From the NCBI GenBank assembly GCA_947629335.1, contig CANRDI010000001.1, positions 310,001-374,000 of the forward strand: 64,000 nucleotides of DNA. Direction: 5' to 3'. Of the stretch, positions 3,032 through 16,636 are shown piece by piece. A program made the position numbers and the translations under genes. The notes below the pieces were generated by a model, which saw only the letters and a list, made by a program, of their open reading frames with translations, ran no database searches and was not told where the DNA came from. How positions within the stretch are numbered: position 1 is the first letter of the stretch; each line of letters starts with the position of its first letter. The DNA is from an uncultured Clostridia bacterium. GTDB lineage: Bacteria > Bacillota > Clostridia > Oscillospirales > Ruminococcaceae.

Positions 3032-4804
3032 TTAATTCTGCTTTCTAACCTTTATGTGAACTTCCCTGAGCTGCTGTTCGGTAACTTCCGTAGGAGCGCC
3101 CAAAAGCAGATCCTGCGCGTTAGAGTTGAGCGGGAACGCAATTATCTCGCGTATGCTCTCTTCTCCTGTCAGAAGCATTATCATCCTGTCAACTCCCGGT
3201 GCCATTCCCGCATGAGGCGGTGCGCCAAACTTGAACGCATTATACAATGCTCCGAACTTTGTCGCAACATCTTCCTCGGTATATCCCGCAATTTCAAACG
3301 CTTTTATCATAATGTCAAGGTCATGGTTACGAACAGCACCCGACGAAAGTTCAACGCCGTTGCAGACAATATCATACTGGTACGCGAGAATTTCAAGCGG
3401 GTCTTTGTTTAAAAGCGCGTCAAGCCCGCCCTGCGGCATAGAAAAAGGATTATGCGTAAAAATTATCTTTCCCGTTTCCTCGTCAAGCTCGTACATCGGG
3501 AAATCAACGATAAAGCACAGCTCAAACCTGCTTTCGTCAATCAAATTCATTCTTTTCGCAACTTCTGTCCTTATCTGCCCAGCAAACTTCGGAGCATTTT
3601 TCGGAGTATCGGCAATAAAATACAGTACATCTCCCACTTCAAGCTCACAGCGCTTTGCAAGCTCCGTGCGTTGACTGTCGTCAAGGAATTTGTCAATAGG
3701 ACCGTTGTACTTAAATCCGCCGTTTTCGCCCTCTTCGACCTTGAAATATCCCAAGCCTTTCATTCCGACTTCGTTTACCGCAAAGTCCTCCATATTCTTA
3801 AAGAAGCTCTTTGACTGTGAAGCCATTTTCGGAACTCTTATTCCCCTTACGCACTTATTCGCAAACGGCTTGAAATCGCTGTCAACAAACAAGTCGGAAA
3901 GCTCTTTAATTATAAGCGGATTGCGCAGATCGGGCTTGTCTGAGCCGTAATTGAGCATTGCCTCCGCAAAAGTAATTCTTCTGAAAGGCGCAGTACTTAC
4001 TTTCTTATCCGAAAACTTTGTGAATACTGCCGAAAGTACCTCTTCCGCGACCTTGAAAACATCCTCCTGCGTGGCAAAACTCATCTCAAAGTCAAGTTGA
4101 TAAAACTCTCCCGGCGAACGGTCGGCTCTTGCGTCCTCATCTCTGAAACACGGAGCAATCTGGAAATATCTGTCAAATCCCGAAACCATATAGATCTGCT
4201 TGAAAATCTGCGGAGCTTGCGGCAAAGCGTAAAACTTTCCGTGATGTTTTCGGCTCGGTATGAGATAATCTCTTGCGCCCTCAGGAGACGACGTAGACAA
4301 GATCGGCGTCTGAAGCTCCAAAAATCCCATTTCGCGCATTTTATCGCGCAAAAACGCAATAATATCCGAACGAAGTACAATATTGTCGTGCATTTTCTTG
4401 TTGCGCAAGTCAAGATAGCGGTATTTAAGCCTAACGTCCTCGCGCGTTTCACGCGAAGTCGCAATTTCAAACGGGAGCTGTTCCGTAACTTTGCCGAGTA
4501 TTCTTACTTCTTCGGCTTCGATCTCTATAGTACCCGTCTCGATCTTATCATTATAGGTGCTTTCGTCGCGCTTTATGACAGTACCCGAAATGCTCACCGC
4601 GCACTCTTTGTGAATACCGTCAAGCAAGCTCTCATTATGGAAAACGATCTGAACTTCTCCATAATGATCTCTGAGATCTGCAAACATAATTCCGCCATGG
4701 TCGCGGATATTTGCTATCCAACCCGCCGCTCTGACCTTTTTTCCGATGTCATTTTCGCCGAAACCGTTACAATAAGCGGTTCTGTATTCATTTTCTATAA
4801 ACAA
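3032..4804 (-). CDS. aspS: Aspartyl-tRNA synthetase
   Basis: Class II aminoacyl-tRNA synthetase charging tRNA-Asp (possibly also tRNA-Asn). An N-terminal OB anticodon-binding domain (VRAAGWIANIRDHGGIMFADLRD) is followed by class II motif 2 (FRDEDARADRSPGEFYQLDFEM), the bacterial GAD insertion and motif 3 (GMAPGVDRMIMLL). The open frame extends to 4903, but a perfect promoter (4838-4866) lies inside that extension. The supported start is therefore TTG at 4804, 6 bases after an AAAGGGTG ribosome site, giving about 590 residues, the usual bacterial length. The protein then begins FIENEYRTAYC, as expected for the family. The gene is divergent from the flippase gene at 4956. Confidence 0.96.
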   Translation of the reverse strand: MFIENEYRTAYCNGFGENDIGKKVRAAGWIANIRDHGGIMFADLRDHYGEVQIVFHNESLLDGIHKECAVSISGTVIKRDESTYNDKIETGTIEIEAEEVRILGKVTEQLPFEIATSRETREDVRLKYRYLDLRNKKMHDNIVLRSDIIAFLRDKMREMGFLELQTPILSTSSPEGARDYLIPSRKHHGKFYALPQAPQIFKQIYMVSGFDRYFQIAPCFRDEDARADRSPGEFYQLDFEMSFATQEDVFKVAEEVLSAVFTKFSDKKVSTAPFRRITFAEAMLNYGSDKPDLRNPLIIKELSDLFVDSDFKPFANKCVRGIRVPKMASQSKSFFKNMEDFAVNEVGMKGLGYFKVEEGENGGFKYNGPIDKFLDDSQRTELAKRCELEVGDVLYFIADTPKNAPKFAGQIRTEVAKRMNLIDESRFELCFIVDFPMYELDEETGKIIFTHNPFSMPQGGLDALLNKDPLEILAYQYDIVCNGVELSSGAVRNHDLDIMIKAFEIAGYTEEDVATKFGALYNAFKFGAPPHAGMAPGVDRMIMLLTGEESIREIIAFPLNSNAQDLLLGAPTEVTEQQLREVHIKVRKQN

Positions 4805-4837
4805 TGTCTTCACCCTTTCGCTATAATTCAACATCTT

Positions 4838-4866
4838 ATTATAACACCAAACATATTTTTTGTCAA
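4838..4866 (-). promoter_or_regulatory. Consensus sigma-A promoter of aspS
   Basis: On the minus strand TTGACA (4866-4861), a 17-base spacer and TATAAT (4843-4838). The ATG at 4834 would lie only three bases after the -10 box, which excludes it and the longer start at 4903 as translation starts. Confidence 0.88.
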
Positions 4867-4896
4867 GTAATTTTAATATATTTTGGAAGAAAACAC

Positions 4897-4925
4897 TTGA
4901 CAATCAGTTTAATTTTTTTTATAAT
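4897..4925 (+). promoter_or_regulatory. Consensus sigma-A promoter of the flippase-like gene and prfC
   Basis: TTGACA at 4897-4902, 17 bases, TATAAT at 4920-4925. It is back-to-back with the aspS promoter; the two -35 boxes are 30 bases apart. An AGAGGG ribosome site and the ATG at 4956 follow. Confidence 0.88.
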
Positions 4926-4955
4926 AGTATAAGTATGTGTATAGAGGGATAATTT

Positions 4956-6047
4956 ATGAAAAAATCAAGTAAAAAGCTAAATCTTATTATTTGCGGTATT
5001 GCCTTTGCCGTAATGATAATATATCTGTTTGTTTTTGATAAGCCCGAAAAGGTTTTCAGCGCCGTAAAAGCCATAAACCCTTGGTTTATTGTGATTTGCA
5101 TGCTGTTTATGGTCGGATACTGGTTATGCGAAGCGCTCACGGTGCATTCCCTTTTAAAGCCCATGCACAAAACGGCAAAATTTTATCATAGCTGGCTCGA
5201 TACGATAATCGGACAGTATTTCAACTGCATAACGCCGTTTGCTTCGGGCGGACAGCCTATGCAGACCTATTATTTTGTAAAATTCGGAGTGCCTTTGGGA
5301 CATACTCTGACTGCCCTGCTTTCAAGATTTATCGTATATCAGTTTGTTTTAACGCTCTATTCGGTCTTTACGCTTTGTATCGGCATAGGACAGTTTGGGA
5401 GCGACCTTTCGTCAAAGGGACTTATACCGTTTGTGCTTGTGGGATTTGTAGTGAATACAGCCGTTATTGTTTTCCTTATAGGCATTGCGATCTGGAGAAA
5501 GGGAACAATAAAGTTTTTGAATATGATAATTTCACTTCTCGAAAAAATGCACGTTGTGAAAAATCCTATGCGCTATAGAGTGTATTTTACGCGCGAAGTT
5601 GAAAAATTCCACACAAATTTCCGATTTCTCAAAAATAATATTCCCGCTATCATTAAAGCCTGTATCTTTACTTTTATTCAGCTTTCACTGTACCTTTCGA
5701 TCACATACGTCCTTTATCTCGGCTTTGGACTTGAAGGTTCGGGGCTTTTACAGATAATGTCATACCAGGCGTTTGTACTTATGATTTCGGCATTTATACC
5801 GCTTCCCGGAGCAATGGGCGCGGCTGAACTCGGATTTGCGGGATTTTTCGGGGATATTTTCAAAGATTTCACCGGAACGGCTATGATGCTCTGGAGAATA
5901 TTTACCTTTTACCTGCCGATAATCGTAGGAATGATATTTACGCTGACGCTTAAAAACAAAGGCATTGAAGAACCGACGAAAACCGAGGCAAACGAGCAGA
6001 TCTATAATGCTGAACAAGATCTGATAAACAATAACGAAAAGGAATAA
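4956..6047 (+). CDS. YbhN/MprF-type flippase-like integral membrane protein
   Basis: Member of the lysylphosphatidylglycerol synthase transmembrane (UPF0104/YbhN) family, the lipid-flippase half of MprF without the aminoacyl-transferase domain. The 363-residue product has about eight hydrophobic segments and the family motif around residues 85-100 (ITPFASGGQPMQTYYFVKFG). A second typical segment is LPGAMGAAELGFAGFF near residue 285. The C-terminus is a polar, glutamate-rich tail. Substrate is unknown; the family is thought to translocate lipids or isoprenoid-linked compounds, which is inference here. It is followed after five bases by prfC, so the two are probably co-transcribed. Confidence 0.85.
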   Translation: MKKSSKKLNLIICGIAFAVMIIYLFVFDKPEKVFSAVKAINPWFIVICMLFMVGYWLCEALTVHSLLKPMHKTAKFYHSWLDTIIGQYFNCITPFASGGQPMQTYYFVKFGVPLGHTLTALLSRFIVYQFVLTLYSVFTLCIGIGQFGSDLSSKGLIPFVLVGFVVNTAVIVFLIGIAIWRKGTIKFLNMIISLLEKMHVVKNPMRYRVYFTREVEKFHTNFRFLKNNIPAIIKACIFTFIQLSLYLSITYVLYLGFGLEGSGLLQIMSYQAFVLMISAFIPLPGAMGAAELGFAGFFGDIFKDFTGTAMMLWRIFTFYLPIIVGMIFTLTLKNKGIEEPTKTEANEQIYNAEQDLINNNEKE

Positions 6048-6052
6048 AAAAT

Positions 6053-7669
6053 ATGTCCGATATGAAACACGAAATTGAACGCCGCAGAACGTTCGCTATC
6101 ATCTCTCACCCCGACGCGGGAAAAACCACGCTCACCGAAAAGTTCTTGCTTTACGGCGGGGCTATCGCTATGGCGGGCGCGGTAAAGGGAAAGAAAAATA
6201 CAAGACACGCTGTTTCCGACTGGATGGAAATTGAAAAACAGCGCGGTATTTCCGTTACATCTTCCGTTATGCAGTTCAACTACAACGGTTTTTGCATAAA
6301 CATTCTTGATACCCCCGGACATCAGGATTTCTCCGAGGACACTTATCGCACGCTTATGGCTGCGGACAGCGCGGTCATGGTTATTGACGCGGCAAAGGGC
6401 GTTGAAAATCAGACAAGAAAGCTCTTTAAGGTCTGCGTTATGCGCAATATCCCGATCTTCACATTTATAAACAAAATGGACAGAGAAAGCAGAAATCCGT
6501 TTGACCTTCTTGAAGAGATCGAAAATGAACTTGGAATAAAGACCTATCCCGTAAACTGGCCTATCGGTTCGGGAAAGGATTTCAAAGGCGTTTACGACCG
6601 CGAAAACCGCAGAATTATTTCCTTTGAAATGAACGACGGAATGAACTACGGCACAAAAGAAGTCGCGGCTACCGAAGCTGACTTGAATGACGAAAATCTT
6701 GCCGAGCTTATCGGACAGTCTAACTATAACACCCTTAAAGACGACGTTGAGCTTTTGGACGGCGCGAGTGAGGAATTTGACGAGGAACAGGTCAATTCGG
6801 GAAAATTATCGCCTGTTTTCTTCGGTTCAGCGCTTACGAATTTCGGAGTTGAGCCGTTTTTGGAAAACTTTTTGAAAATGACGACTTCTCCCCTGCCGAG
6901 GAAAACTCAAAACGGCGTTATCGACCCGTTTGACGAGAATTTTTCTGCGTTCATTTTTAAGATACAGGCTAATATGAACAAGGCTCACCGCGACAGAATT
7001 GCGTTTATGAGAATTGTAAGCGGAAAGTTTACCAAGGAAATGGAAGTTCTGCACGTTCAGAACAACCGCATTATGCGCCTTTCACAGCCCCAACAGATCA
7101 TGGCGAACGACCGCGAGGTAATAGAAGAAGCATTTGCGGGCGACATTATGGGCGTTTTTGATCCGGGAGAGTTTTCTATAGGCGACACGATATGCGCGCC
7201 GAAAATGAAAGTAAAATTTGAAGGTATACCGACGTTTGCTCCTGAGCATTTTGCGAGGATACGTCAAAAAGACACTCTTAAACGAAAGCAGTTTATCAAA
7301 GGCACAACTCAAATTGCACAAGAGGGAGCTATCCAGATCTTCTCCGAACCGCAGAGCGGATTTGAAGAAGTAATAGTGGGAGTTGTCGGTGTATTGCAGT
7401 TTGATGTTCTTGAATACAGGCTGAAAAATGAATATAATGTGGATATTATCCGCGAGGATCTGTCGTATGAATATATCCGCTGGATCACGAGTGAAAAACA
7501 TCTTGAAGGAGGACTTGACGAACTTAAAAAACTTGTTATAACTTCAGACACTAAACTCATTCAGGACGTTCACGGAAACTATCTGCTTATATTTACGAGC
7601 GAATGGAACATAAAATGGGCGCTCGATAAAAACGAGGGGTTGAAACTTGCGGAATTCAGCAGAAACTGA
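6053..7669 (+). CDS. prfC: Peptide chain release factor 3
   Basis: RF3 is a translational GTPase that removes RF1/RF2 from the ribosome after peptide release. The 538-residue product begins with the RF3-type G domain: G1 SHPDAGKTT, a switch region with the RGISVTSSVMQF signature, G3 DTPGHQDF and G4 NKMDR. Domain II and the RF3 C-terminal domain follow (GVVGVLQFDVLEYRL). The length is close to the usual 525-540. The ribosome site lies in the end of the preceding flippase gene (AAAAGGAATAAAAAATATG). Confidence 0.97.
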   Translation: MSDMKHEIERRRTFAIISHPDAGKTTLTEKFLLYGGAIAMAGAVKGKKNTRHAVSDWMEIEKQRGISVTSSVMQFNYNGFCINILDTPGHQDFSEDTYRTLMAADSAVMVIDAAKGVENQTRKLFKVCVMRNIPIFTFINKMDRESRNPFDLLEEIENELGIKTYPVNWPIGSGKDFKGVYDRENRRIISFEMNDGMNYGTKEVAATEADLNDENLAELIGQSNYNTLKDDVELLDGASEEFDEEQVNSGKLSPVFFGSALTNFGVEPFLENFLKMTTSPLPRKTQNGVIDPFDENFSAFIFKIQANMNKAHRDRIAFMRIVSGKFTKEMEVLHVQNNRIMRLSQPQQIMANDREVIEEAFAGDIMGVFDPGEFSIGDTICAPKMKVKFEGIPTFAPEHFARIRQKDTLKRKQFIKGTTQIAQEGAIQIFSEPQSGFEEVIVGVVGVLQFDVLEYRLKNEYNVDIIREDLSYEYIRWITSEKHLEGGLDELKKLVITSDTKLIQDVHGNYLLIFTSEWNIKWALDKNEGLKLAEFSRN

Positions 7670-7732
7670 CTTTAACAGCACCGCTTCTGTGATTATTTAC
7701 AACATCAATATCAACACTACCGACACTTAAAC

Positions 7733-7798
7733 ACTGCGGCAATACACGCGCTATGCTTTGCGCTTTAACTGCGATCTGAAATTTTGCCGCAGTTTTTC
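7733..7798 (+). terminator. Likely intrinsic terminator of the flippase-prfC operon
   Basis: A 10-bp perfect stem ACTGCGGCAA (7733-7742) / TTGCCGCAGT (7784-7793) followed by a T-run. The 41-base loop contains a smaller GCGC/GCGC hairpin. The rest of the 333-base gap (7670-8002) shows only AT-rich sequence and the next promoter. Confidence 0.65.
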
Positions 7799-7930
7799 AC
7801 ATTTTCTTTTCTATCAAATGCTTACTGAAAAAGCATTGTAAAAATGTACAAACTTTACAAATGATTTTATTAAAATTAACGAAAAACATTCCCCTTGTAC
7901 GCCTAAATGTGCATTATATCGCAATTCTAC

Positions 7931-7959
7931 TTGATTTTTGCGGAAATATTTGTTATAAT
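7931..7959 (+). promoter_or_regulatory. Sigma-A-type promoter of the P-type ATPase homologue/DUF368 operon
   Basis: TTGATT (7931-7936), 17 bases, TATAAT (7954-7959), then a GAGGG ribosome site before the ATG at 8003. Confidence 0.75.
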
Positions 7960-8002
7960 AAAATTGTTTTGTTTTAAATATTATATATGAGGGAATGTCT
8001 AT

Positions 8003-10465
8003 ATGGCTCAATTTTTTAATTTCAACGAGGATTATTACGGTCTGACTTCCGAAGATGTGAAAAAAAGGCTCTCGATTTACGGAGCAAACATATATACAAA
8101 AAATACAAAAACCGACGGCTTTTCTTATTTGAGCGTGTTTTTATCTCCGTCGGTCATAATAATGTTTGCGGCGGGAATTTTGGCGCTTTTCGGGATAGGT
8201 ATTGCCGCGGGAATAATAACTATTGTAATTGACGCTCTATACTGCGCGGCGGAGATATTTTTCAGAAAGTCTGCGGATAAAAGGTTTTCCGAGCTTGGAG
8301 ATACTCTTAAAATGAAGATGAGAGTTATCCGAGGTGGAACAGTAGAGCTTGTGGATAAGGAAAATATTGTGCCGGAAGACCTGATTGTTATCCAAGAGGG
8401 CGAGCGCGTGCCTGCTGACGCGTTTATACTTGAATCGCGCGACCTGACCTGCGACGAAAGTATTTTCACCGACAGCAGCAATCCTGCGGCAAAATACGCA
8501 GGAGGAATTTCAAGCAGCGAATTTAAGCCGACATTTGTTTATGCGCAGACTACCGTCCTCTCCGGAATAGCTATTTGTAAAGTCAGCGCAACAGGCGTCG
8601 ATACAAAATATTATCAGTACATAGGCGAAGTTTCGGAAAGAAGTCCGTATTATACTGGGTTCGAGAAAATTATACGCTCGCTTATCCCCGCAAGCAGCAT
8701 TATCGCACTTATGATAACCGCGATAACGTTTGTGGTGGGGCTTGTCGGAAACAGCGGTATCATTTCTACGGCTATAAGCGGATTGACGCTCGGTCTTTGC
8801 TTTATACCTACGGGCTTTGAGTCGGTAATCAGATACTATTATGCTCACGGCTGTAAGGAGCTTTTAAAATGCGGCGCGGTAATAAGGTCGTATAACGATA
8901 TTGAAAAGCTCAACAGCCTTTCGGTGCTTTGCGTTGAAAAAGAGGGTGCTATTTCAAAAAACAATCTTGAAGTACGCGAGCTTTACGGTCCAAGTATAGA
9001 ACTTTTGTACAAGGTAGCTGCGCTCGCCTGCGACAGAAACACAACAAATCCCGCAGAACGCGCGCTTATGGTAAAAGCCTCATTTGCTTATGAAAATTTT
9101 TCGGATATTTATTCTCAGTTTGAGCTTATTGAAAAACTTCCCGACGACGATACAATAAGCGGCGCGCTCTGGAGCGTAGGAGAAGACAAACTTTACTGTA
9201 TAAAAGGCGTTCCGGAACAGATACTTCCTATGTGCAAGCTAAGAGGCGAAAAGCTGATCGCGGCGCAAAAGCGCTATCAAGAATATTATGAAAAGGGTTA
9301 TTCTGTAATAGCGTTTGCCTGTGTGGAGGCTGAGTCCGCCGAGCTTGATAAAACCGTGGGCTTCAGTTATACATTTGTCGGGTTTGCGGCATTTTCCGCT
9401 CCGCTGCGCGATTCGGTACTGTCCGCGGTAAAAACGTGTCAGAACGTTGGAGTAAAAGTGGTCATGCTGTGCGAGGATTCGGCGGATTCTTCCGCAGCTA
9501 CGGCAAAAATGGTCGGTATACCTTACAATAAGACAGTAACAGGAACTCAGCTCGAAAGCGGAGAGCAGATAGATTTCAGCGGAAACATCTTCGCAGAAAT
9601 TACCTCGGAGCAAAAACGTTTTATCATAAAACATCTCAAAGCAAACGGAGATGTTGTGGGAATGGCAGGAACGCGCGCAACCGACGCGGAGGCTCTGAGG
9701 ACGGCTGATATCGGGTTTACGATCGTCGATCATTGTTCTCCGAGCGTAAGAGAATCCGCGGATATTATCATGAACGACGACAATTTCATGTCGATCGCGT
9801 CCTCTATAGCTGCCGCAAGACAAATACACCGAAACATAAAACGCGGCGTTTCGCTTATAATATCCGAATATATCGGATTTCTGATAATTATGATAAGCAA
9901 TCTGCTTGTAGACGCCCAGCTTTTGCTTAATCCGCCGATCATGGCGCTTTTTACCATGATACTGCTTCCTGTTTTCACGGTCGGTTATGCAAAAAACAAG
10001 ACGGATATGAACACCCGTATGCCCAGTTCGGATTTCATTTCGCACAGAAAGTTCAATTTTCGATATCTCATTTTCTGCGCTGTAACGGGACTTCTTACGG
10101 GATTATCCGCCGTTGTCTCCTATTCGCTGATGTATAATAACACCCAGCCTGCGCTTGAACAAGGAGCGGCGCGAAGCTGCGGCTTTATAACGCTTATGAT
10201 ATGTACGGCGGCGTTTGTATTTATACGTTTTTCCGAGCATAATCCGTTTAAGGCGTTTTTGAGGTCGGGAATACTGTCAAAAATTGCGCTTATATCGGCG
10301 GTTGCGATTTCGGTTTTATTTGTGTTTATTCCCGGAGTAAACAGTGCATTCGGACTTTTGCCGATAGACGCATTTGCAGTCATAACAAGCATTATCATCG
10401 GCATTATCCCCTCGGCAGCTTATTTCGGAGTTAAATTTTTTCTTAATATCAAGGAGTGGAAATGA
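8003..10465 (+). CDS. P-type ATPase family protein with all catalytic motifs degenerate (putative pseudoenzyme)
   Basis: The 820-residue product has the P2-type ATPase layout: a cation-ATPase N-terminus (YGLTSEDVKKRLSIYGAN), an actuator domain (residues ~100-200), M3-M4, phosphorylation/nucleotide domains (~300-600) and C-terminal TM segments. The catalytic residues are lost. The phosphorylation motif DKTGT reads EKEGA (312-316), with Glu for the essential Asp. TGES reads TDSS (156-159). The M4 PEGLP reads PTGFE (269-273). TGD reads CED (490-492). GDGxND reads GTRATD (556-561), lacking the first Mg-binding Asp. The nucleotide-site KGxPE (401-405) survives. The frame is intact with normal codon use, so this is not simple decay. 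It overlaps the DUF368 gene by four bases (ATGA). A transport or regulatory role without phosphorylation is inference. Confidence 0.85.
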   Translation: MAQFFNFNEDYYGLTSEDVKKRLSIYGANIYTKNTKTDGFSYLSVFLSPSVIIMFAAGILALFGIGIAAGIITIVIDALYCAAEIFFRKSADKRFSELGDTLKMKMRVIRGGTVELVDKENIVPEDLIVIQEGERVPADAFILESRDLTCDESIFTDSSNPAAKYAGGISSSEFKPTFVYAQTTVLSGIAICKVSATGVDTKYYQYIGEVSERSPYYTGFEKIIRSLIPASSIIALMITAITFVVGLVGNSGIISTAISGLTLGLCFIPTGFESVIRYYYAHGCKELLKCGAVIRSYNDIEKLNSLSVLCVEKEGAISKNNLEVRELYGPSIELLYKVAALACDRNTTNPAERALMVKASFAYENFSDIYSQFELIEKLPDDDTISGALWSVGEDKLYCIKGVPEQILPMCKLRGEKLIAAQKRYQEYYEKGYSVIAFACVEAESAELDKTVGFSYTFVGFAAFSAPLRDSVLSAVKTCQNVGVKVVMLCEDSADSSAATAKMVGIPYNKTVTGTQLESGEQIDFSGNIFAEITSEQKRFIIKHLKANGDVVGMAGTRATDAEALRTADIGFTIVDHCSPSVRESADIIMNDDNFMSIASSIAAARQIHRNIKRGVSLIISEYIGFLIIMISNLLVDAQLLLNPPIMALFTMILLPVFTVGYAKNKTDMNTRMPSSDFISHRKFNFRYLIFCAVTGLLTGLSAVVSYSLMYNNTQPALEQGAARSCGFITLMICTAAFVFIRFSEHNPFKAFLRSGILSKIALISAVAISVLFVFIPGVNSAFGLLPIDAFAVITSIIIGIIPSAAYFGVKFFLNIKEWK

Positions 10466-11328
10466 AGAACATAGCTCAATATATCAGATATTTTTTGTGC
10501 GGAATTGTTTTCGGAACGGCAAATGTTATCCCCGGAGTAAGCGGCGGAACAATGCTCGTTATATTCGGAATTTTCGACAAGCTGACGGACTCGATTTCGG
10601 GAATTAAAAAAATAATAAGCAATCTGCCTTTTCTTCTGACGTTCGGCATCGGCGCGGGCGCGGGAATACTTGCGTCGGCAAATATTATTTCGTACCTTTT
10701 AGAGACGTTCGGCGTACAGACAAATATGTTTTTCATCGGTCTTATTCTCGGCGGAGTTCCGCTTATTTACAAAATAGGCACTTCCGAAAAAAAGGCAAAA
10801 CCTTTGTGCGCTCTGCCTTTTATAATAGCAATGGCTGTAGTAATAGGGCTTTCAGTTCTGGAAAAAACGAACATTATTTCTCTCGGAAGCAGCTCGGCAG
10901 AAGGATTTGATTTGATTTTCTCGCTTAAAATGGTCGGATGTGCGGCTCTTGCGGCAGTAACAATGATAATCCCCGGCATTTCAGGCTCGTTTATTATGAT
11001 GCTTTTGGGAGTTTACGAAACGATAACAGGCGCGCTGAAATCGCTGAATTTATTCGTTCTTATTCCGTTTGCAATAGGTGCGGTCATCGGAATTGTCGTC
11101 GGCGCGAAACTTATTTCAATGCTAATAAACAAAAACAGACTTATGGTCTACTCCGCGCTTATGGGACTTGTCATAGGCTCGGTCTACGCAATTCTTCCCG
11201 AAGGCTTCGGATTTAACCTCGATACGGGATATGGTTTTGTATGCCTGATAATCGGTGCAGTTGTATCGGTTCTTATTGAAAAGATAGGAAATACTGATGG
11301 AGAAGAAACAACTAAATCCGATTCTTGA
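10462..11328 (+). CDS. DUF368 membrane protein, PopT-type polyprenyl-phosphate transporter
   Basis: DUF368 proteins are integral membrane proteins; members of this family (PopT) have been shown to translocate undecaprenyl phosphate, the lipid carrier recycled in wall synthesis. The N-terminal signature GTANVIPGVSGGTM and its internal echo MIIPGISGSFIMMLLG near residue 175 mark two inverted halves, with about eight to ten hydrophobic segments. A GTG six bases upstream is in frame, but AAGGAG at 10451-10456 fits the ATG at 10462. That ATG overlaps the stop of the upstream gene as ATGA, giving tight translational coupling. The 3' end overlaps the convergent sigG stop by 17 bases. Function in this organism is inferred from family work. 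Confidence 0.88.
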   Translation: MKNIAQYIRYFLCGIVFGTANVIPGVSGGTMLVIFGIFDKLTDSISGIKKIISNLPFLLTFGIGAGAGILASANIISYLLETFGVQTNMFFIGLILGGVPLIYKIGTSEKKAKPLCALPFIIAMAVVIGLSVLEKTNIISLGSSSAEGFDLIFSLKMVGCAALAAVTMIIPGISGSFIMMLLGVYETITGALKSLNLFVLIPFAIGAVIGIVVGAKLISMLINKNRLMVYSALMGLVIGSVYAILPEGFGFNLDTGYGFVCLIIGAVVSVLIEKIGNTDGEETTKSDS

Positions 11329-12082
11329 TCTTGTCAAGCGCTCCTTTTTCAAGCCGCGAGACTTGCGCTTGACTTATGCCTATCTCTTTTGCAACCTCGA
11401 CCTGAGTTTTCCCGCGGAAAAAACGAAGATTTAAAATGCGCTTTTCGCGCTTTCCGAGCTGTTCTATCGCTTCTTTGAGCGATATTTCGTTCAGCCAGTT
11501 CATATCGTCGTTATGGTCGCCAATCTGGTCTAAAACGTAGATAGTATCCCCCGATTCGGAGAATACAGGCTCGTAAAGCGATATAGGCTCGCTTATTGCT
11601 TCGAGCGCAATTACAACATTCTTTCGCGGCGCATCGATCTCCTTGGCTATATCTTCAATTTTTGGCTCACGACCGTTTTGTGCCGTGAGTTTTTCTTTTG
11701 CCTGCATTGCTTTATATGCCAAATCGCGCATTGAACGGCTTACTCGTACAGACGCATTGTCACGAAGATAACGTCTTAATTCTCCCATTATCATCGGCAC
11801 GGCATAGGTCGAAAATCTTACCTGCTGTGAAATGTCAAAGTTGTCGATAGCTTTTATAAGCCCTATACAGCCGACCTGAAAGAGATCGTCTGCGCTTTCT
11901 CCGCGGTTTGTAAAGCGCTGTATAACGCTAAGCACAAGCCGCAGATTTCCTCGAATAAGTTCCTCGCGGGCGTTCATATCGCCTTCTTTTATTTTCTTCA
12001 GCAGCTCGGTTTTCTCCGATTCTTTGAGTACTTTCAGCTTGCTTGTGTTTACTCCGCTTATCTCAACTTTGTTGTAGTACAA
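11312..12082 (-). CDS. sigG: Forespore-specific RNA polymerase sigma factor SigG
   Basis: Late forespore sigma factor of sporulation. The 256-residue product carries the SigG N-terminus NKVEISGVNTSKL (the SpoIIAB/CsfB-contact region in B. subtilis), region 2 (DLFQVGCIGLIKAIDNFD, VRFSTYAVPMIMGE), region 3 and a region 4 helix-turn-helix (VAKEIGISQAQVSRLEK). The frame is open to 12115, but the ribosome site AGAGGTGG lies inside that extension. The supported start is TTG at 12082, which aligns with the SigG start of other species. It lies 104 bases after sigE on the same strand. The leader folds into a hairpin covering the ribosome site. Confidence 0.95.
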   Translation of the reverse strand: MYYNKVEISGVNTSKLKVLKESEKTELLKKIKEGDMNAREELIRGNLRLVLSVIQRFTNRGESADDLFQVGCIGLIKAIDNFDISQQVRFSTYAVPMIMGELRRYLRDNASVRVSRSMRDLAYKAMQAKEKLTAQNGREPKIEDIAKEIDAPRKNVVIALEAISEPISLYEPVFSESGDTIYVLDQIGDHNDDMNWLNEISLKEAIEQLGKREKRILNLRFFRGKTQVEVAKEIGISQAQVSRLEKGALDKIKNRI

Positions 12083-12086
12083 AACA

Positions 12087-12138
12087 AAACCACCTCTGAC
12101 AATAAAACTGTACAAGTATTATTGTCATAAAGTGGTTT
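12087..12138 (-). promoter_or_regulatory. sigG leader hairpin masking the ribosome-binding site
   Basis: Inverted repeat in the sigG 5' leader: TTATTGTCA (12119-12127) pairs with TGACAATAA (12097-12105), and GTGGTTT (12132-12138) pairs with AAACCAC (12087-12093). This gives 16 pairs with a small asymmetric internal loop and a 13-base terminal loop. On the minus-strand RNA the 3' arm contains the AGAGGTGG ribosome site of sigG, so the folded form would block initiation. A conserved RBS-occluding hairpin in the sigG leader is known from B. subtilis. Confidence 0.75.
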
Positions 12139-12186
12139 GGTTATTCCGAAATATTCTTCGGTTTAAATTGTAAATTTAGAGTTATT

Positions 12187-12894
12187 TTAGTTGCAAACTT
12201 TTTCTAATTCCTCTCGAAGCTGCTTTATAATGCGCTTTTCAAGCCGCGAAATATAGCTTTGGGATATACCTATCTCGTCGGCAACTTCTTTTTGCGTTTT
12301 TTCCTTACAGCCATTAAGCCCAAAGCGCATTTCCATTATCTTTTTTTCACGCTTTCCGAGATGATTGACCGCCTCATGCAGAAGCTGTTTTTCTACCTCG
12401 TCTTCAATATGAGCATTTACACAGTCGCTCTCTGTTCCGAGAACATCCGACAGCAAAAGCTCGTTTCCGTCCCAGTCAACGTTCAGCGGCTCGTCTATTG
12501 ACACATCATAGCGATATTGGCTGTATTTTCTCAGAAACATAAGTATTTCATTTTCTATACAGCGCGAAGCATATGTTGCGAGCTTTATGTTTTTGTCCTT
12601 GCTGAATGTACTGACGGCTTTGATAAGTCCGACTGTTCCGATTGAAGTAAGATCTTCGAGCCATATGCCCGTATTTTCGAATTTTTTTGCAATATATACG
12701 ACAAGCCTCAGATTATGTACAATAAGAGTATCTCTTGCCTTTTCAAAATCCGTATCAAGAAGCGACAGCGCGGCTTCTTCCTCTTCTTTTGACAGCGGAG
12801 GGGGAAGCTGGTCGGAACTGTTTATATAGTGTACAAAGTTTTTTCTTTTGCGGAAAATGACGGCAAATATCTTTGCAAAGAGTTTTTTAAACAT
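12187..12894 (-). CDS. sigE: Mother-cell sporulation sigma factor, pro-SigE
   Basis: Early mother-cell sigma factor, made as an inactive precursor. Residues 1-23 form a basic, amphipathic pro-sequence ([19 protein letters not shown]). It ends in HY-IN before the conserved [10 protein letters not shown], which matches the region cleaved by SpoIIGA. Region 2 ([33 protein letters not shown]) and region 4 ([18 protein letters not shown]) are complete. The 235-residue length is normal. It is co-oriented with spoIIGA (11 bases between them) and sigG, the usual spoIIG order. Confidence 0.97.
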
Positions 12895-12905
12895 AACTGT
12901 TCCCC

Positions 12906-13727
12906 CTATATTGAAATAATTTCAGGATTTAATACACAATCGACGTCATCGCCGAGTTTTTTTCCCGAAACGCCTATAAGAGCGTCAGCGCTCTTTCCGT
13001 TTATAATGATCTGCTGCGGTCTGAATACAGGGATAAGCGTTTCATCAGACACTGTATTCAGCGGAATAAGGCGAATTTTCTCTACCGAACCCCCATTGAA
13101 ATAATCATTTACGCTTTGGGGAATTATTTTCGTAATCTTTTCTGCCGCGCATATAACGACAGGCGTTCCTGTAAAAATATCCTTTACGTCACAGCCTGTA
13201 TCGCAAAGTCCGTTTAAAGTTATTTCGGCGTTTTCACTAATGATCTTTACCTCGCAGAATTTATTTATACGGGAATTTTTAGAAGCAATAAATTTTACGA
13301 GCTTTATCAGGAAAAACGCTGCGGCGGTAAATGCAATAACAGCGGCGACAGGAATATCGAAATAGAAAACGCCGTTTTCACAGACCATTTCGAGAGGAGA
13401 AAAAAATGTCCAGAACGCATTTACCGCTCCTGCAAAAATAAAATTTACCAGTATGAAGAACAGCGCGGATACTGCAAAATCCGAGGGCTTTTGTTTTCCG
13501 AAAGCTATAAATGTCATCAATGCGCCGAGCGCGATTTTATATAATGCCGATAACAAATATCCGAGCGGCGGCGCAAGTATAATAAGCGCGCCTAAAGCTC
13601 CGACAAATGCCGAAAGCACAAGTTTCAGGCGGGAAGGTCGGCGCTTTAAAAACAGTGCGGTCGAATATAGCAAAAAGAAGTTTATGTAAAGATTTAATGC
13701 CACAAGAACATCAACGTAAATTGTCAA
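12906..13727 (-). CDS. spoIIGA: Sporulation sigma-E factor processing peptidase SpoIIGA
   Basis: Membrane-embedded aspartic-type protease that activates pro-SigE in the mother cell on a signal from the forespore. The N-terminal half has about five hydrophobic segments; the C-terminal half is a cytoplasmic protease domain with the catalytic DTG (residues 176-178 from the TTG) and the conserved RLIPL and LIGVS stretches. The frame is open to 13799, but a GAGGTG ribosome site six bases before TTG at 13727 gives [12 protein letters not shown], aligning with known SpoIIGA starts and giving 273 residues. Spo0A-like boxes and a TATAAT box lie upstream. Confidence 0.93.
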
Positions 13728-13749
13728 GGCTTTCACCTCGCTTGTACTT

Positions 13750-13846
13750 ATTATAACGCTGATATGCCGCGAATTATGCCGAATTAGCGTGTCGAACAAC
13801 AGAAAATTTATGCAAAAGGCAAAAAAACCGTTCGGAAAATGTCGAA
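13750..13846 (-). promoter_or_regulatory. Putative Spo0A~P-activated spoIIG promoter
   Basis: A -10 box TATAAT (13755-13750) has no TTGACA at 17 bases. About 21 bases upstream lies TGCCGAA (13777-13783), and further upstream are two exact 0A boxes TGTCGAA (13790-13796 and 13840-13846). A long spacer with 0A boxes near the -35 position resembles the B. subtilis spoIIG promoter, which is sigma-A dependent and Spo0A~P activated. Confidence 0.65.
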
Positions 13847-13925
13847 CAGAACTATTTTATAAAAACTGCTGCACAAACAGCCTGTCTGCAATATTTCAAA
13901 ACATTTAAGGTCAAGTATTGATGTA

Positions 13926-13957
13926 TAAAAAAGCGGGACGGTTTTATCTTCCGTCCC
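13926..13957 (-). terminator. Intrinsic terminator of the MGMT-like gene
   Basis: On the minus strand, a perfect 7-bp stem GGGACGG/CCGTCCC (13957-13951 and 13941-13935) followed by GCTTTTTTAT. It overlaps the last codons and stop of the gene ending at 13944. Confidence 0.85.
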
Positions 13958-14252
13958 ACAAATATTTTTCAAGATCGACCGAATTATCCTCGCTCACCTC
14001 AATTCCCTCTGCCCTTAACAATTTAGCCTGCTCGTCTTCTCCGCCGAATGCAAATGCGGGAGCAAGATGTCCGAAACGATTTACCACGCGATAGCATTTT
14101 ATTGTCTGCGGGTCGGGATTTGAATGCAGTGCATAGCCTACTACTCTTGCCCAGCGGGGATTTCCCGCCATCATAGCGATCTGTCCGTATGTTGCAACTT
14201 TTCCGTATGGTATTTTTTTCACAATCTCATATATTTTCTCAAACGTTCCCAT
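13944..14252 (-). CDS. MGMT/alkyltransferase-like family protein with altered active-site motif
   Basis: A 102-residue protein consisting only of the DNA-binding and active-site domain of O6-alkylguanine-DNA alkyltransferases: YGKVATYGQIAMMAG, then NPRWARVVGYALHSNP, then the active-site region and the closing FAFGGEDEQAKLL. The canonical PCHRV reads KCYRV. The alkyl-acceptor Cys is kept, but the Pro and the catalytic-relay His are replaced, whereas ATL proteins replace the Cys by Trp. It may be a weak transferase or a DNA-damage sensor; the sequence does not decide. An AGGTGAG ribosome site precedes the ATG. Confidence 0.85.
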   Translation of the reverse strand: MGTFEKIYEIVKKIPYGKVATYGQIAMMAGNPRWARVVGYALHSNPDPQTIKCYRVVNRFGHLAPAFAFGGEDEQAKLLRAEGIEVSEDNSVDLEKYLWDGR

Positions 14253-14325
14253 GCTCTCACCTATCTTTTATTTCTAATTCTTACAGCGTTATCCTCCGCA
14301 AGCGGATAATGCTCTTAACTATAAC

Positions 14326-15240
14326 TCAAACTTCCCTCTTATCATTTGTGTACAGTATGCGTATATAGTCACGATCTCTCATGTCCATATCGCCGAGGTA
14401 CATTCTTTGATGTTCGGGGACTGCCTCGTATGCCTCGCGGAGCTTGTTTTTGCTTTGCTCTGACGGGTATTCAAGGTAGTTAATATAAGCCCGCCGAGCG
14501 GCTTCAAATGCGTCGGGCTTGTTCTGCAACCGAAGCGACTCGTTTTCTATTTCCTTGATTTTTTCTGATTTCAGTACCTCATAAACTGCTTTGCAGACAG
14601 CAGTACCGAGCGCTCCGAAACTCACGGTTTCGTTTTCATTCGGCGAAACGCAGAGAATATCTTCGTTAAACAGCTCGTGAATTTTGTCGAGCGAAACGTA
14701 TTCTTCCCCGTCAAGCCCGTCAACAGAAAAAGTCCCGTCCTCGTAAGCCGTGACGGACGTCAGCATTAAATCCCCGTTTTTTCGGAGAAATACATTCATC
14801 TGCTTTCCGTTCTTTGTGTCATAGCCGAATTTCCCTGTTACTTTAAACGGCGTGGGTGACGCGGAAAATCCAACGTGAAATTCTTTCCACTTGTCCTTTT
14901 CGCGCTGTGTTGCTTGATAAATATTCGCCATTTCGGGATTTATGGAGCGAACGGTGTCCTCAATAAACTTTCGATAACTCTCGCTGTCGAAATTCCAGTC
15001 AGCCGAAATGATTTCAAGCGTACACAAGCCATGAACGCTAAGCGCACTGCCCGCGGGCACTCCTACCGTCAGCCACCCGCGCTCAATCTGCCGCATAACA
15101 TCACACAAATCGGTCTTTTCCCAGCAGCTTATCGCGCCGTCCTCATAAACCGCCATATTCAACCAGAAATAGTTTCTGTTATGAATTATTGCAGGCACAG
15201 TGACGCCCTCTATCCGCTGTTTTCTATATACCTTTCCCAT
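14326..15240 (-). CDS. Uncharacterised 304-residue soluble protein
   Basis: I do not recognise a family with confidence. The product is soluble, without signal peptide or membrane segments. The N-terminal third looks beta-rich (YFWLNMAVYEDGAISCWEKTDL). A second similar strand-turn pattern follows (NVFLRKNGDLMLTSVTAYEDGTFSV). Together they suggest two related beta domains, each with an internal YEDG element. The C-terminal 80 residues are helical and charged (AARRAYINYLEYPSEQSKNKL). AGGAG six bases before the ATG supports the start. It stands alone downstream of clpX, 94 bases after it on the same strand, and could be read through from clpX. Confidence 0.75.
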   Translation of the reverse strand: MGKVYRKQRIEGVTVPAIIHNRNYFWLNMAVYEDGAISCWEKTDLCDVMRQIERGWLTVGVPAGSALSVHGLCTLEIISADWNFDSESYRKFIEDTVRSINPEMANIYQATQREKDKWKEFHVGFSASPTPFKVTGKFGYDTKNGKQMNVFLRKNGDLMLTSVTAYEDGTFSVDGLDGEEYVSLDKIHELFNEDILCVSPNENETVSFGALGTAVCKAVYEVLKSEKIKEIENESLRLQNKPDAFEAARRAYINYLEYPSEQSKNKLREAYEAVPEHQRMYLGDMDMRDRDYIRILYTNDKREV

Positions 15241-15260
15241 ATTTTCTCCTGATAATCAAA

Positions 15261-15298
15261 AGCCGTTCGATATCTGAAAATTTTGATACCGAACAGCT
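15261..15298 (-). terminator. Imperfect hairpin between clpX and the unknown gene
   Basis: AGCcGTTCGaTATC pairs with GATAcCGAACaGCT across a 10-base AT loop, with two internal mismatches. There is no convincing U-tract, so it may only attenuate transcription beyond clpX. Confidence 0.35.
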
Positions 15299-15334
15299 TA
15301 AATTCATAGCTTTATATCAATTGCTTAAAAGCTC

Positions 15335-16636
15335 TCAACCTGTTTTCTTTTTGGAAAATTTAACAGCCTTCGCTCTCGAATTATCTCGCGTTATCTGCGG
15401 CTCACCGCCGTTTATGCAATCCTCTGTGATAGTAATCTTAGAGATAGTCGGGTCGCTCGGCGCAGTAAACATAACGTCTCTTAAAAGATCTTCAACTATA
15501 GAGCGAAGTCCTCTTGCGCCGGTTTTCGTTTCAATTGCCTTTTTAGCAATTGCCCTCAGCGCACCCTGCTCAAATTCAAGCTCGATATCGTCCGCGCTGA
15601 ACAAGCACTTATACTGTTTGATAAGCGCATTTTTCGGCTCGTCAAGTATCCTTACGAGCGCATCCTCGTCGAGCGCGTCAAGCGGAACTATTACCGGAAG
15701 TCTTCCGATAAGTTCGGGAATAATTCCGTATTTTACAAGATCCTGCTGGTTCACTTTTTTGAGAAGATCGGCTGTTTCCTTTTCCTTCGCGGATTTTACA
15801 TCAGCACCAAATCCCATAGCCGAGCTTGAAACACGCTGGGCTATTTTCTTTTCAATGCCCTCGAAAGCGCCTCCGCAGATAAACAAAATGTTCTTTGTAT
15901 TTACCTGTATAAACTCCTGCTGAGGATGTTTTCTGCCGCCCTGCGGCGGAACATTTGAAACCGTACCTTCAATTATTTTGAGCAATGCCTGCTGAACACC
16001 CTCGCCGCTTACGTCGCGGGTAATTGATGTATTTTCGCTTCTGCGGGAGATTTTATCAATTTCGTCAATATATATGATCCCGTGTTCAGCCGCCTCTATG
16101 TCGAAATCAGCCGCCTGTACAAGCCTCAGCAGAACATTTTCAACATCCTCGCCGACATATCCTGCCTGTGTAAGCGTTGTTGCGTCGGCAATTGCAAACG
16201 GAACATTTAACAGCTTTGCAAGACTTTGCGCAAGAAGCGTCTTTCCAACTCCCGTCGGTCCGAGCAAAAGCACGTTTGATTTTTGAAGTTCTACTTCGTC
16301 GTCCTCGCCTGACTGCATAAAAATACGCTTATAATGGTTATAGACCGAAACCGCGAGAACTTTTTTCGCTTCGTCCTGACCGATAATATATCTGTCAAGA
16401 TATGCTTTTATATCTTCCGGCGTCATAATTTTATCGGGTTCGGAAAGGAACTGTTTTCCTCTTTGCGAGGAGCTTGTGGGGCGTCTCAGACCTCTGGGGA
16501 CTTTTATATCGCCGTTTTCAAGAAGAAGGTTATATGAAGCCACTACACAATCGCTGCAAATAACGACGTTATCGTTTCCTCCAAATAACATTCTTGCTTG
16601 TGATTCGCTTTTTCCGCAAAACGAGCAGGTCATCAT
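15335..16636 (-). CDS. clpX: ClpX, ATP-binding unfoldase subunit of ClpXP
   Basis: AAA+ unfoldase that recognises substrates and feeds them into ClpP. An N-terminal C4 zinc-binding domain (Cys4, Cys7, Cys27, Cys30) is followed by Walker A GPTGVGKT, Walker [11 protein letters not shown], the pore-loop GYVGEDVE and sensor 2 GARGLR. The 433-residue length is typical (420-430). GGAGGG precedes a double ATG, and the first is taken as start. It sits 20 bases after clpP, so the two are co-transcribed. Confidence 0.98.

Follow-up and report, generated by a model that had tools for sequence, protein, structure and literature searches.

A conserved pseudo-P-type ATPase co-inherited with a DUF368 putative lipid-carrier translocase in related Clostridia

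We analysed a 64,000-nucleotide stretch (the window) of an uncultured Clostridia bacterium (Ruminococcaceae; GenBank assembly GCA_947629335.1, contig CANRDI010000001.1, positions 310,001 to 374,000 of the forward strand), for which an original prediction made from the DNA letters had described a catalytically dead P-type ATPase coupled to a DUF368 transporter. The first gene of this pair is an open reading frame (ORF) on the plus strand at 8003..10465, encoding 820 residues without an internal stop, as had been claimed; its product is referred to here as the pseudo-ATPase. The second, on the same strand at 10462..11328, encodes a 288-residue DUF368 (PF04018) protein resembling undecaprenyl-phosphate (Und-P) translocases. 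The ORF tool places the start of this gene at GTG 10456, and the first in-frame Met is ATG 10462. Using the latter, the stop/start overlap described earlier is present, with the ATG and the preceding TGA sharing the sequence ATGA.

The pseudo-ATPase scores above the Pfam cut-offs of PF00122, PF00689 and PF00690 and below that of PF00702, and NCBIfam likewise assigns the ORF to the P-type ATPases. The predicted P-type fold is complete (AlphaFold2 pLDDT 82.8, with full-length structural matches), a single chain comprising the A, P, N and membrane domains. The substitutions listed in the original prediction are present. The A-domain TGES is TDSS (residues 156-159; 8468..8479), the M4 ion-site PEGLP is PTGFE (residues 269-273; 8807..8821), the phosphorylation motif DKTGT is EKEGA with E312 replacing the Asp (residues 312-316; 8936..8950), TGD is CED (residues 490-492; 9470..9478) and GDGxND is GTRATD (residues 556-561; 9668..9685), in which the first Asp is T557 and the second is retained as D561. 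The N-domain KGxPE motif is kept as KGVPE (residues 401-405; 9203..9217).

The gene is present in 35 of the 37 genomes of the window's genus, the remaining two (73% and 80% complete) yielding distant ATPases only. We aligned 32 near-full sequences from the genus, with identities down to 49%. Positions 312, 313, 315 and 316 are invariantly E, K, G and A, position 491 is Glu throughout, and none of the 32 rows has the TGES Glu, the M4 Glu or the first GDGxND Asp. Because Glu occupies position 312 in every row, chance is excluded for the loss of the phosphorylation Asp. The claim that every residue of the phosphorylation cycle is changed was overstated: the named motifs are indeed altered, but K313, G315, G402, R469, D561 and K538 (which we take to be the equivalent of SERCA K684) are invariant, and 31 of the 32 rows have Lys at position 401.

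The sequence is under strong purifying selection. The ratio of non-synonymous to synonymous substitution rates (dN/dS, Nei-Gojobori) ranges over 0.05-0.14 for the 14 closest genus pairs; for residues 301-335, the six closest pairs give 0.016-0.045. As controls, DUF368 gives 0.067-0.104 in six close pairs and PrfC, sigG, sigE, spoIIGA and MGMT together give 0-0.25, ten of the roughly 30 comparisons for the latter genes being missing where the gene lay outside the stretch. The original prediction favoured a retained pseudoenzyme over recent decay and looked for relaxed selection (dN/dS near 1) as the sign of the latter. Values this far below 1, together with the 32 near-full copies, bear out retention, and recent decay is rejected. 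The pseudo-ATPase is a conserved pseudoenzyme as judged from sequence, having lost its catalytic residues while fold and sequence stay under selection; the inactivity itself is predicted.

Related genes were searched for in 394 genomes of the order, 297 of the family and 391 of the class. Outside the window's genus, the best scores in the order-wide sample were those of a sister genus, g28, represented there by 13 genomes; of 60 g28 genomes, 52 match at E<=1e-170. Of the other eight genomes, five (loci L256-L260) carry the gene, none with DKTGT or GDGxND, two contain contig-end fragments (29% and 35% identical over the N-terminal part) and one has no clear copy. Sister proteins are approximately 30% identical to the window pseudo-ATPase. 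Motifs outside both genera were inspected in seven loci of the order sample and in the 29 best-scoring loci of the family and class samples; GDGxND is present in 28 of these 29, the exception (L140) belonging to a third genus, known here from one genome (G512), which has a pseudo-ATPase. The copies in the sister-genus genomes G1105 and G1099 are more degenerate still, and that of G1105 scores only 288 bits, under many canonical pumps, so that the pseudo-ATPase clade may be wider than what was found.

Fifty sister-genus sequences and that of the third genus were combined into a second set of 51 rows, giving 83 clade rows with the genus alignment. In the second set the M4 Glu is lost in 51/51, the TGES Glu in 50/51 (sister row L121 retains it) and the first GDGxND Asp in 48/51, and the phosphorylation position is Asp in 37 rows, Glu in 10, Gly in three and Asn in one. 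Across both sets the TGES Glu is lost in 82 of 83 rows and the M4 Glu in all 83. Close relatives carrying DKTGT or GDGxND would have spoken against the original prediction, and a search revealed none among the clade rows: intact DKTGT, GDGxND and TGE(S) each occur in 0/83, in contrast to all three in 16/16 canonical relatives. One further canonical row (c_L148) is a wrong-frame ORF, counted in the column tallies (canonical 16/17) and left out of the trees and the whole-motif count.

In a quick tree of 49 rows built without bootstrap (14 of the 32 genus rows, 18 of the 50 sister rows, G512 and 16 canonical relatives, L121 not being among them), the pseudo-ATPases form one clade (SH-aLRT 100) whose stem is 1.21 changes per column long, with G512 on a long branch. 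By parsimony on this tree, the TGES Glu and the M4 Glu each disappeared a single time, against two changes for the first GDGxND Asp and three for the phosphorylatable Asp. Because the former are counted as single losses, the residues for transport and dephosphorylation seem to have gone first.

The pattern of constraint has shifted along with the motifs. We expressed the conservation of each domain as a ratio to the whole protein among pairs of 40-60% identity. In canonical relatives (26 pairs) the M5-6 region is conserved at 1.34x the whole, with the A domain at 0.94x and the N domain at 0.83x. The corresponding values are 0.97x, 1.26x and 1.05x in the window's genus (350 pairs), where the first P segment reaches 1.39, and 0.91x, 1.29x and 1.11x in the sister genus (131 pairs). 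The three cytosolic domains are under strong selection, and the ion path is without its special conservation. Nucleotide contacts were examined at four N-domain positions, which we take to be F487, K492, K515 and R560 in SERCA numbering. The F487 and K492 equivalents, which would lie upstream of KGVPE, are missing in 32/32 rows of the window's genus; the second set has an aromatic residue at the former in 47/51 and Lys at the latter in 26/51. The K515 equivalent is Lys in 77/83 and the R560 equivalent Arg or Lys in 83/83. With two of the four contacts lost, ATP binding, and with it ATP as a signal, is doubtful in the window's genus, and the candidate role of ATP sensor is weakened there.

The link to DUF368 is conserved, as the original prediction had proposed should be checked. 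In the window's genus DUF368 lies downstream on the same strand in 32/32 loci with readable DNA there, four further loci stopping at a contig edge; in the sister genus it does so in 50 of 51 readable loci, five further loci stopping at or near a contig edge. Most other neighbours change: BLASTP sorts 35 upstream ORFs into 26 clusters and 26 downstream ORFs into 20, and after DUF368 the most frequent flanking families reach 7/56 loci each. One such family flanks the pair in the sister-genus loci L111, L112, L113, L123, L192, L258 and L261 (seven of 56), its member in L258 being an APH-like phosphotransferase (PF01636). An FtsW/RodA gene lies upstream in six sister-genus loci including that of G1099, with 50-100% identity to the G1099 protein; the assignment was checked with Pfam in three of the six.

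Overlap, spacing and co-orientation indicate that the pseudo-ATPase and DUF368 genes probably share an operon. A candidate sigma-A-like promoter, TTGATT-17-TATAAT with TG ahead of the -10 element (7931..7959, plus strand), and a likely ribosome-binding site, agggaa (7990-7995, plus strand), precede the pseudo-ATPase ORF. The scan of the region returned six promoter-like sites, where chance alone would give 7.1; seven of the 11 near orthologues examined also have the TTGATTT...TATAAT block 5' of the gene. An Rfam search of 4000..16000 gave no known RNA or riboswitch at E<=1. At its far end, the DUF368 frame shares its last 17 bases (11312-11328) with the end of a convergent sigG-like frame. Elsewhere in the window an LPG-synthase-type flippase-like membrane protein (PF03706; 4956-6047) adjoins PrfC, and is found near the pair in many genus genomes.

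The window DUF368 protein scores 142 bits against PF04018 (cut-off 26) and 133 bits against the NCBIfam PopT equivalog, below its cut-off of 400; from its family it is predicted to move Und-P. The DUF368 proteins of both genera group together (clade support 97), separate from 20 DUF368 proteins of other genera, in a tree in which the sister genus alone is not a clade and for which the tool warned of long branches meeting. Many sister-genus loci and some of the window's genus, L054, L057, L111, L116, L182 and L198 among them, have an extra ~90-100 residues between the two DUF368 halves. DUF368 and DedA proteins have been named as candidate Und-P translocases (PMC9876793). DedA was found in none of 35 genomes of the three genera, a set outside which G1099 lies, with 13 of 14 controls positive.

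G1099 is an exception to the pairing. This genome is 96% complete and has the pseudo-ATPase, and no DUF368 match was found in it; five other genomes also gave no DUF368 match, being merely 72-86% complete. Approximately 110 nt downstream of its pseudo-ATPase lies a gene for a 159-residue PF06695 protein (E 8e-42), a family found in one of 35 genomes searched (G1099 itself) versus 6 of 14 control genomes. This family is distantly related to the DedA family PF09335 (PMC7818093). In G1099 it appears to stand in for a displaced DUF368. As PF06695 shows no significant BLASTP similarity to the window DUF368 proteins, such a displacement would keep function and not sequence.

We favour the reading, at a probability of roughly 0.6, that the pseudo-ATPase is a partner or regulator of an Und-P translocase. 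Its ancestor would have been a cation-pumping P-type ATPase. According to parsimony on the sampled tree, the Glu residues of the M4 ion site and of dephosphorylation disappeared once, at the base of the clade, and loss of the phosphorylatable Asp followed on several occasions. The protein most probably sits in the membrane beside the translocase, which it would stabilise, gate or recruit, its A/P/N head serving as a cytosolic sensor or docking platform. The translocase would usually be DUF368; of the two Und-P translocase families known, no other turned up in the genomes searched. None of the three findings named as refuting the original prediction was obtained, and its interpretation is supported. 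It suggested that the protein regulates the transporter or forms a complex with it; what we observe is co-inheritance, from which we infer contact. More tentatively, and in our view somewhat short of even odds, it may be a dedicated pseudo-pump subunit acting as regulatory partner of whichever Und-P translocase is used, DUF368 nearly everywhere and a DedA-superfamily protein after displacement, with FtsW/RodA joining in some lineages and coupling lipid-carrier recycling to peptidoglycan synthesis.

Several observations weigh against a partnership. One gene intervenes in five of the sister-genus loci, and a few others have a 0.4-0.6 kb gap; the neighbouring ORFs were called mechanically, and any spurious ones among them would push the count of neighbour clusters too high. 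The pseudo-ATPase of the third genus (G512) lies among other genes, with DUF368 on another contig. DUF368 occurs in 124 of 247 family genomes, and 18 of 20 control DUF368 loci from other genera have no P-type ATPase in the stretch, so that DUF368 can generally do without such a partner. From one genus to the other, DUF368 proteins share ~39-62% identity (local alignments) versus ~29-32% for the pseudo-ATPase, whose divergence appears looser than a tight interface would predict. The PF06695 displacement is a single case, in a genome outside the DedA search. As to the genes found between the pair, L186, L187, L189 and L190 share a same-strand gene of 273-302 residues that looks metallophosphoesterase-like by eye (SDLHNN), and the intervening ORF of L188 differs from it. 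Among loci outside the clade, DUF368 of L233 is immediately preceded, in the same orientation, by a canonical Ca-type P-type ATPase, which may hint that the association started from a working pump; the control locus L231 has another P-type ATPase 0.9 kb downstream of DUF368.

The unlinked gene of the third genus would also fit a conserved pseudo-ATPase with a job of its own, such as a passive ion or lipid path or a membrane sensor, co-transcribed with DUF368 for the envelope without touching it. Operons often pair genes whose products do not touch. However, the pair persists while most other neighbours vary, and where DUF368 is missing a gene of the other translocase superfamily occupies the same place; we consider this alternative unlikely.

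The graded motif states raise the question of whether the protein, or at least the sister-genus members with the Asp, still works as a P-type ATPase of a non-canonical kind. Asp occupies the phosphorylation position in 37 rows of the second set, three of which (L195, L201 and L207) also retain both GDGxND Asp residues, and a Glu stands one residue past the M4 position in 27 of the 51 rows, as it does in canonical PEEFP pumps. However, the same three lack the TGES Glu and the M4 Glu, residues lost almost throughout the 83 rows, in which none of the three motifs is intact, and the window's genus uniformly has Glu for Asp. Continued P-type catalysis is therefore improbable.

A third possibility is that ancestral gene order alone maintains the pair, which would hitchhike beside a sporulation cluster. 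In the window's genus it mostly adjoins sigG-sigE-spoIIGA, and sigG (77% identical) lies ~2 kb downstream in G1105 of the sister genus. Since 13 sister-genus loci examined showed no match to sigG, sigE or spoIIGA next to the pair, and neighbours there are diverse, we regard hitchhiking as very improbable. Sporulation control behind the linkage was also considered and set aside, the promoter looking vegetative and the cluster not being seen in those 13 loci. Finally, a decaying pseudogene or an artefact of metagenome-assembled genomes, to which two interrupted copies among the 35 of the genus (L061, and L059 near a contig end) might point, is refuted for practical purposes by the purifying selection, by the 32 near-full genus copies down to 49% identity and by sister-genus stop-to-stop frames no shorter than 811 residues in 50 loci, one cut by a contig end excepted.

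If the favoured reading is true, the pseudo-ATPase would be the first known control partner for Und-P translocases and would define a conserved pseudoenzyme family within the P-type ATPases. It suggests a pump turned helper or regulator of cell-wall lipid-carrier recycling in related gut bacteria, and since the clade retains motif states graded from Asp-bearing to fully changed, the order of the change from pump to non-pump can be tested. Und-P translocases have been identified only recently, and we know of no earlier control partner. In the text available to us, PMC9876793 and PMC12826051 name no P-type ATPase-like partner for them, and a review (PMC10654040) adds P6 to the P1-P5 classes without mention, in the part available, of a catalytically dead family. 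A literature search returned no paper joining 'p-type atpase' with 'pseudoenzyme' or 'pseudo-atpase', and none of the papers with DUF368, ATPase and operon concerns such a pair by its title and the start of its abstract.

Compared with LMCA1, SERCA-type and other cation pumps, the pseudo-ATPase differs in being without the phosphorylation, dephosphorylation and ion-site residues, and its constraint profile is unlike that of cation-pumping P-type ATPases. Of the Und-P translocases, DUF368/PopT and DedA/UptA, the former is here the second gene of the pair, replaced once by PF06695. KdpFABC likewise pairs a P-type fold, the KdpB ATPase, with a separate membrane transport protein, the KdpA channel; KdpB is an active ATPase (PMC8385062), whereas the window protein lacks the catalytic residues and so would offer no competent P-type subunit. 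In apicomplexan guanylyl cyclase alpha a P4-ATPase module is likewise used to control another membrane function, but there, unlike in the pseudo-ATPase pair, the module is fused to its target and its conserved catalytic Asp is required (PMC7858053).

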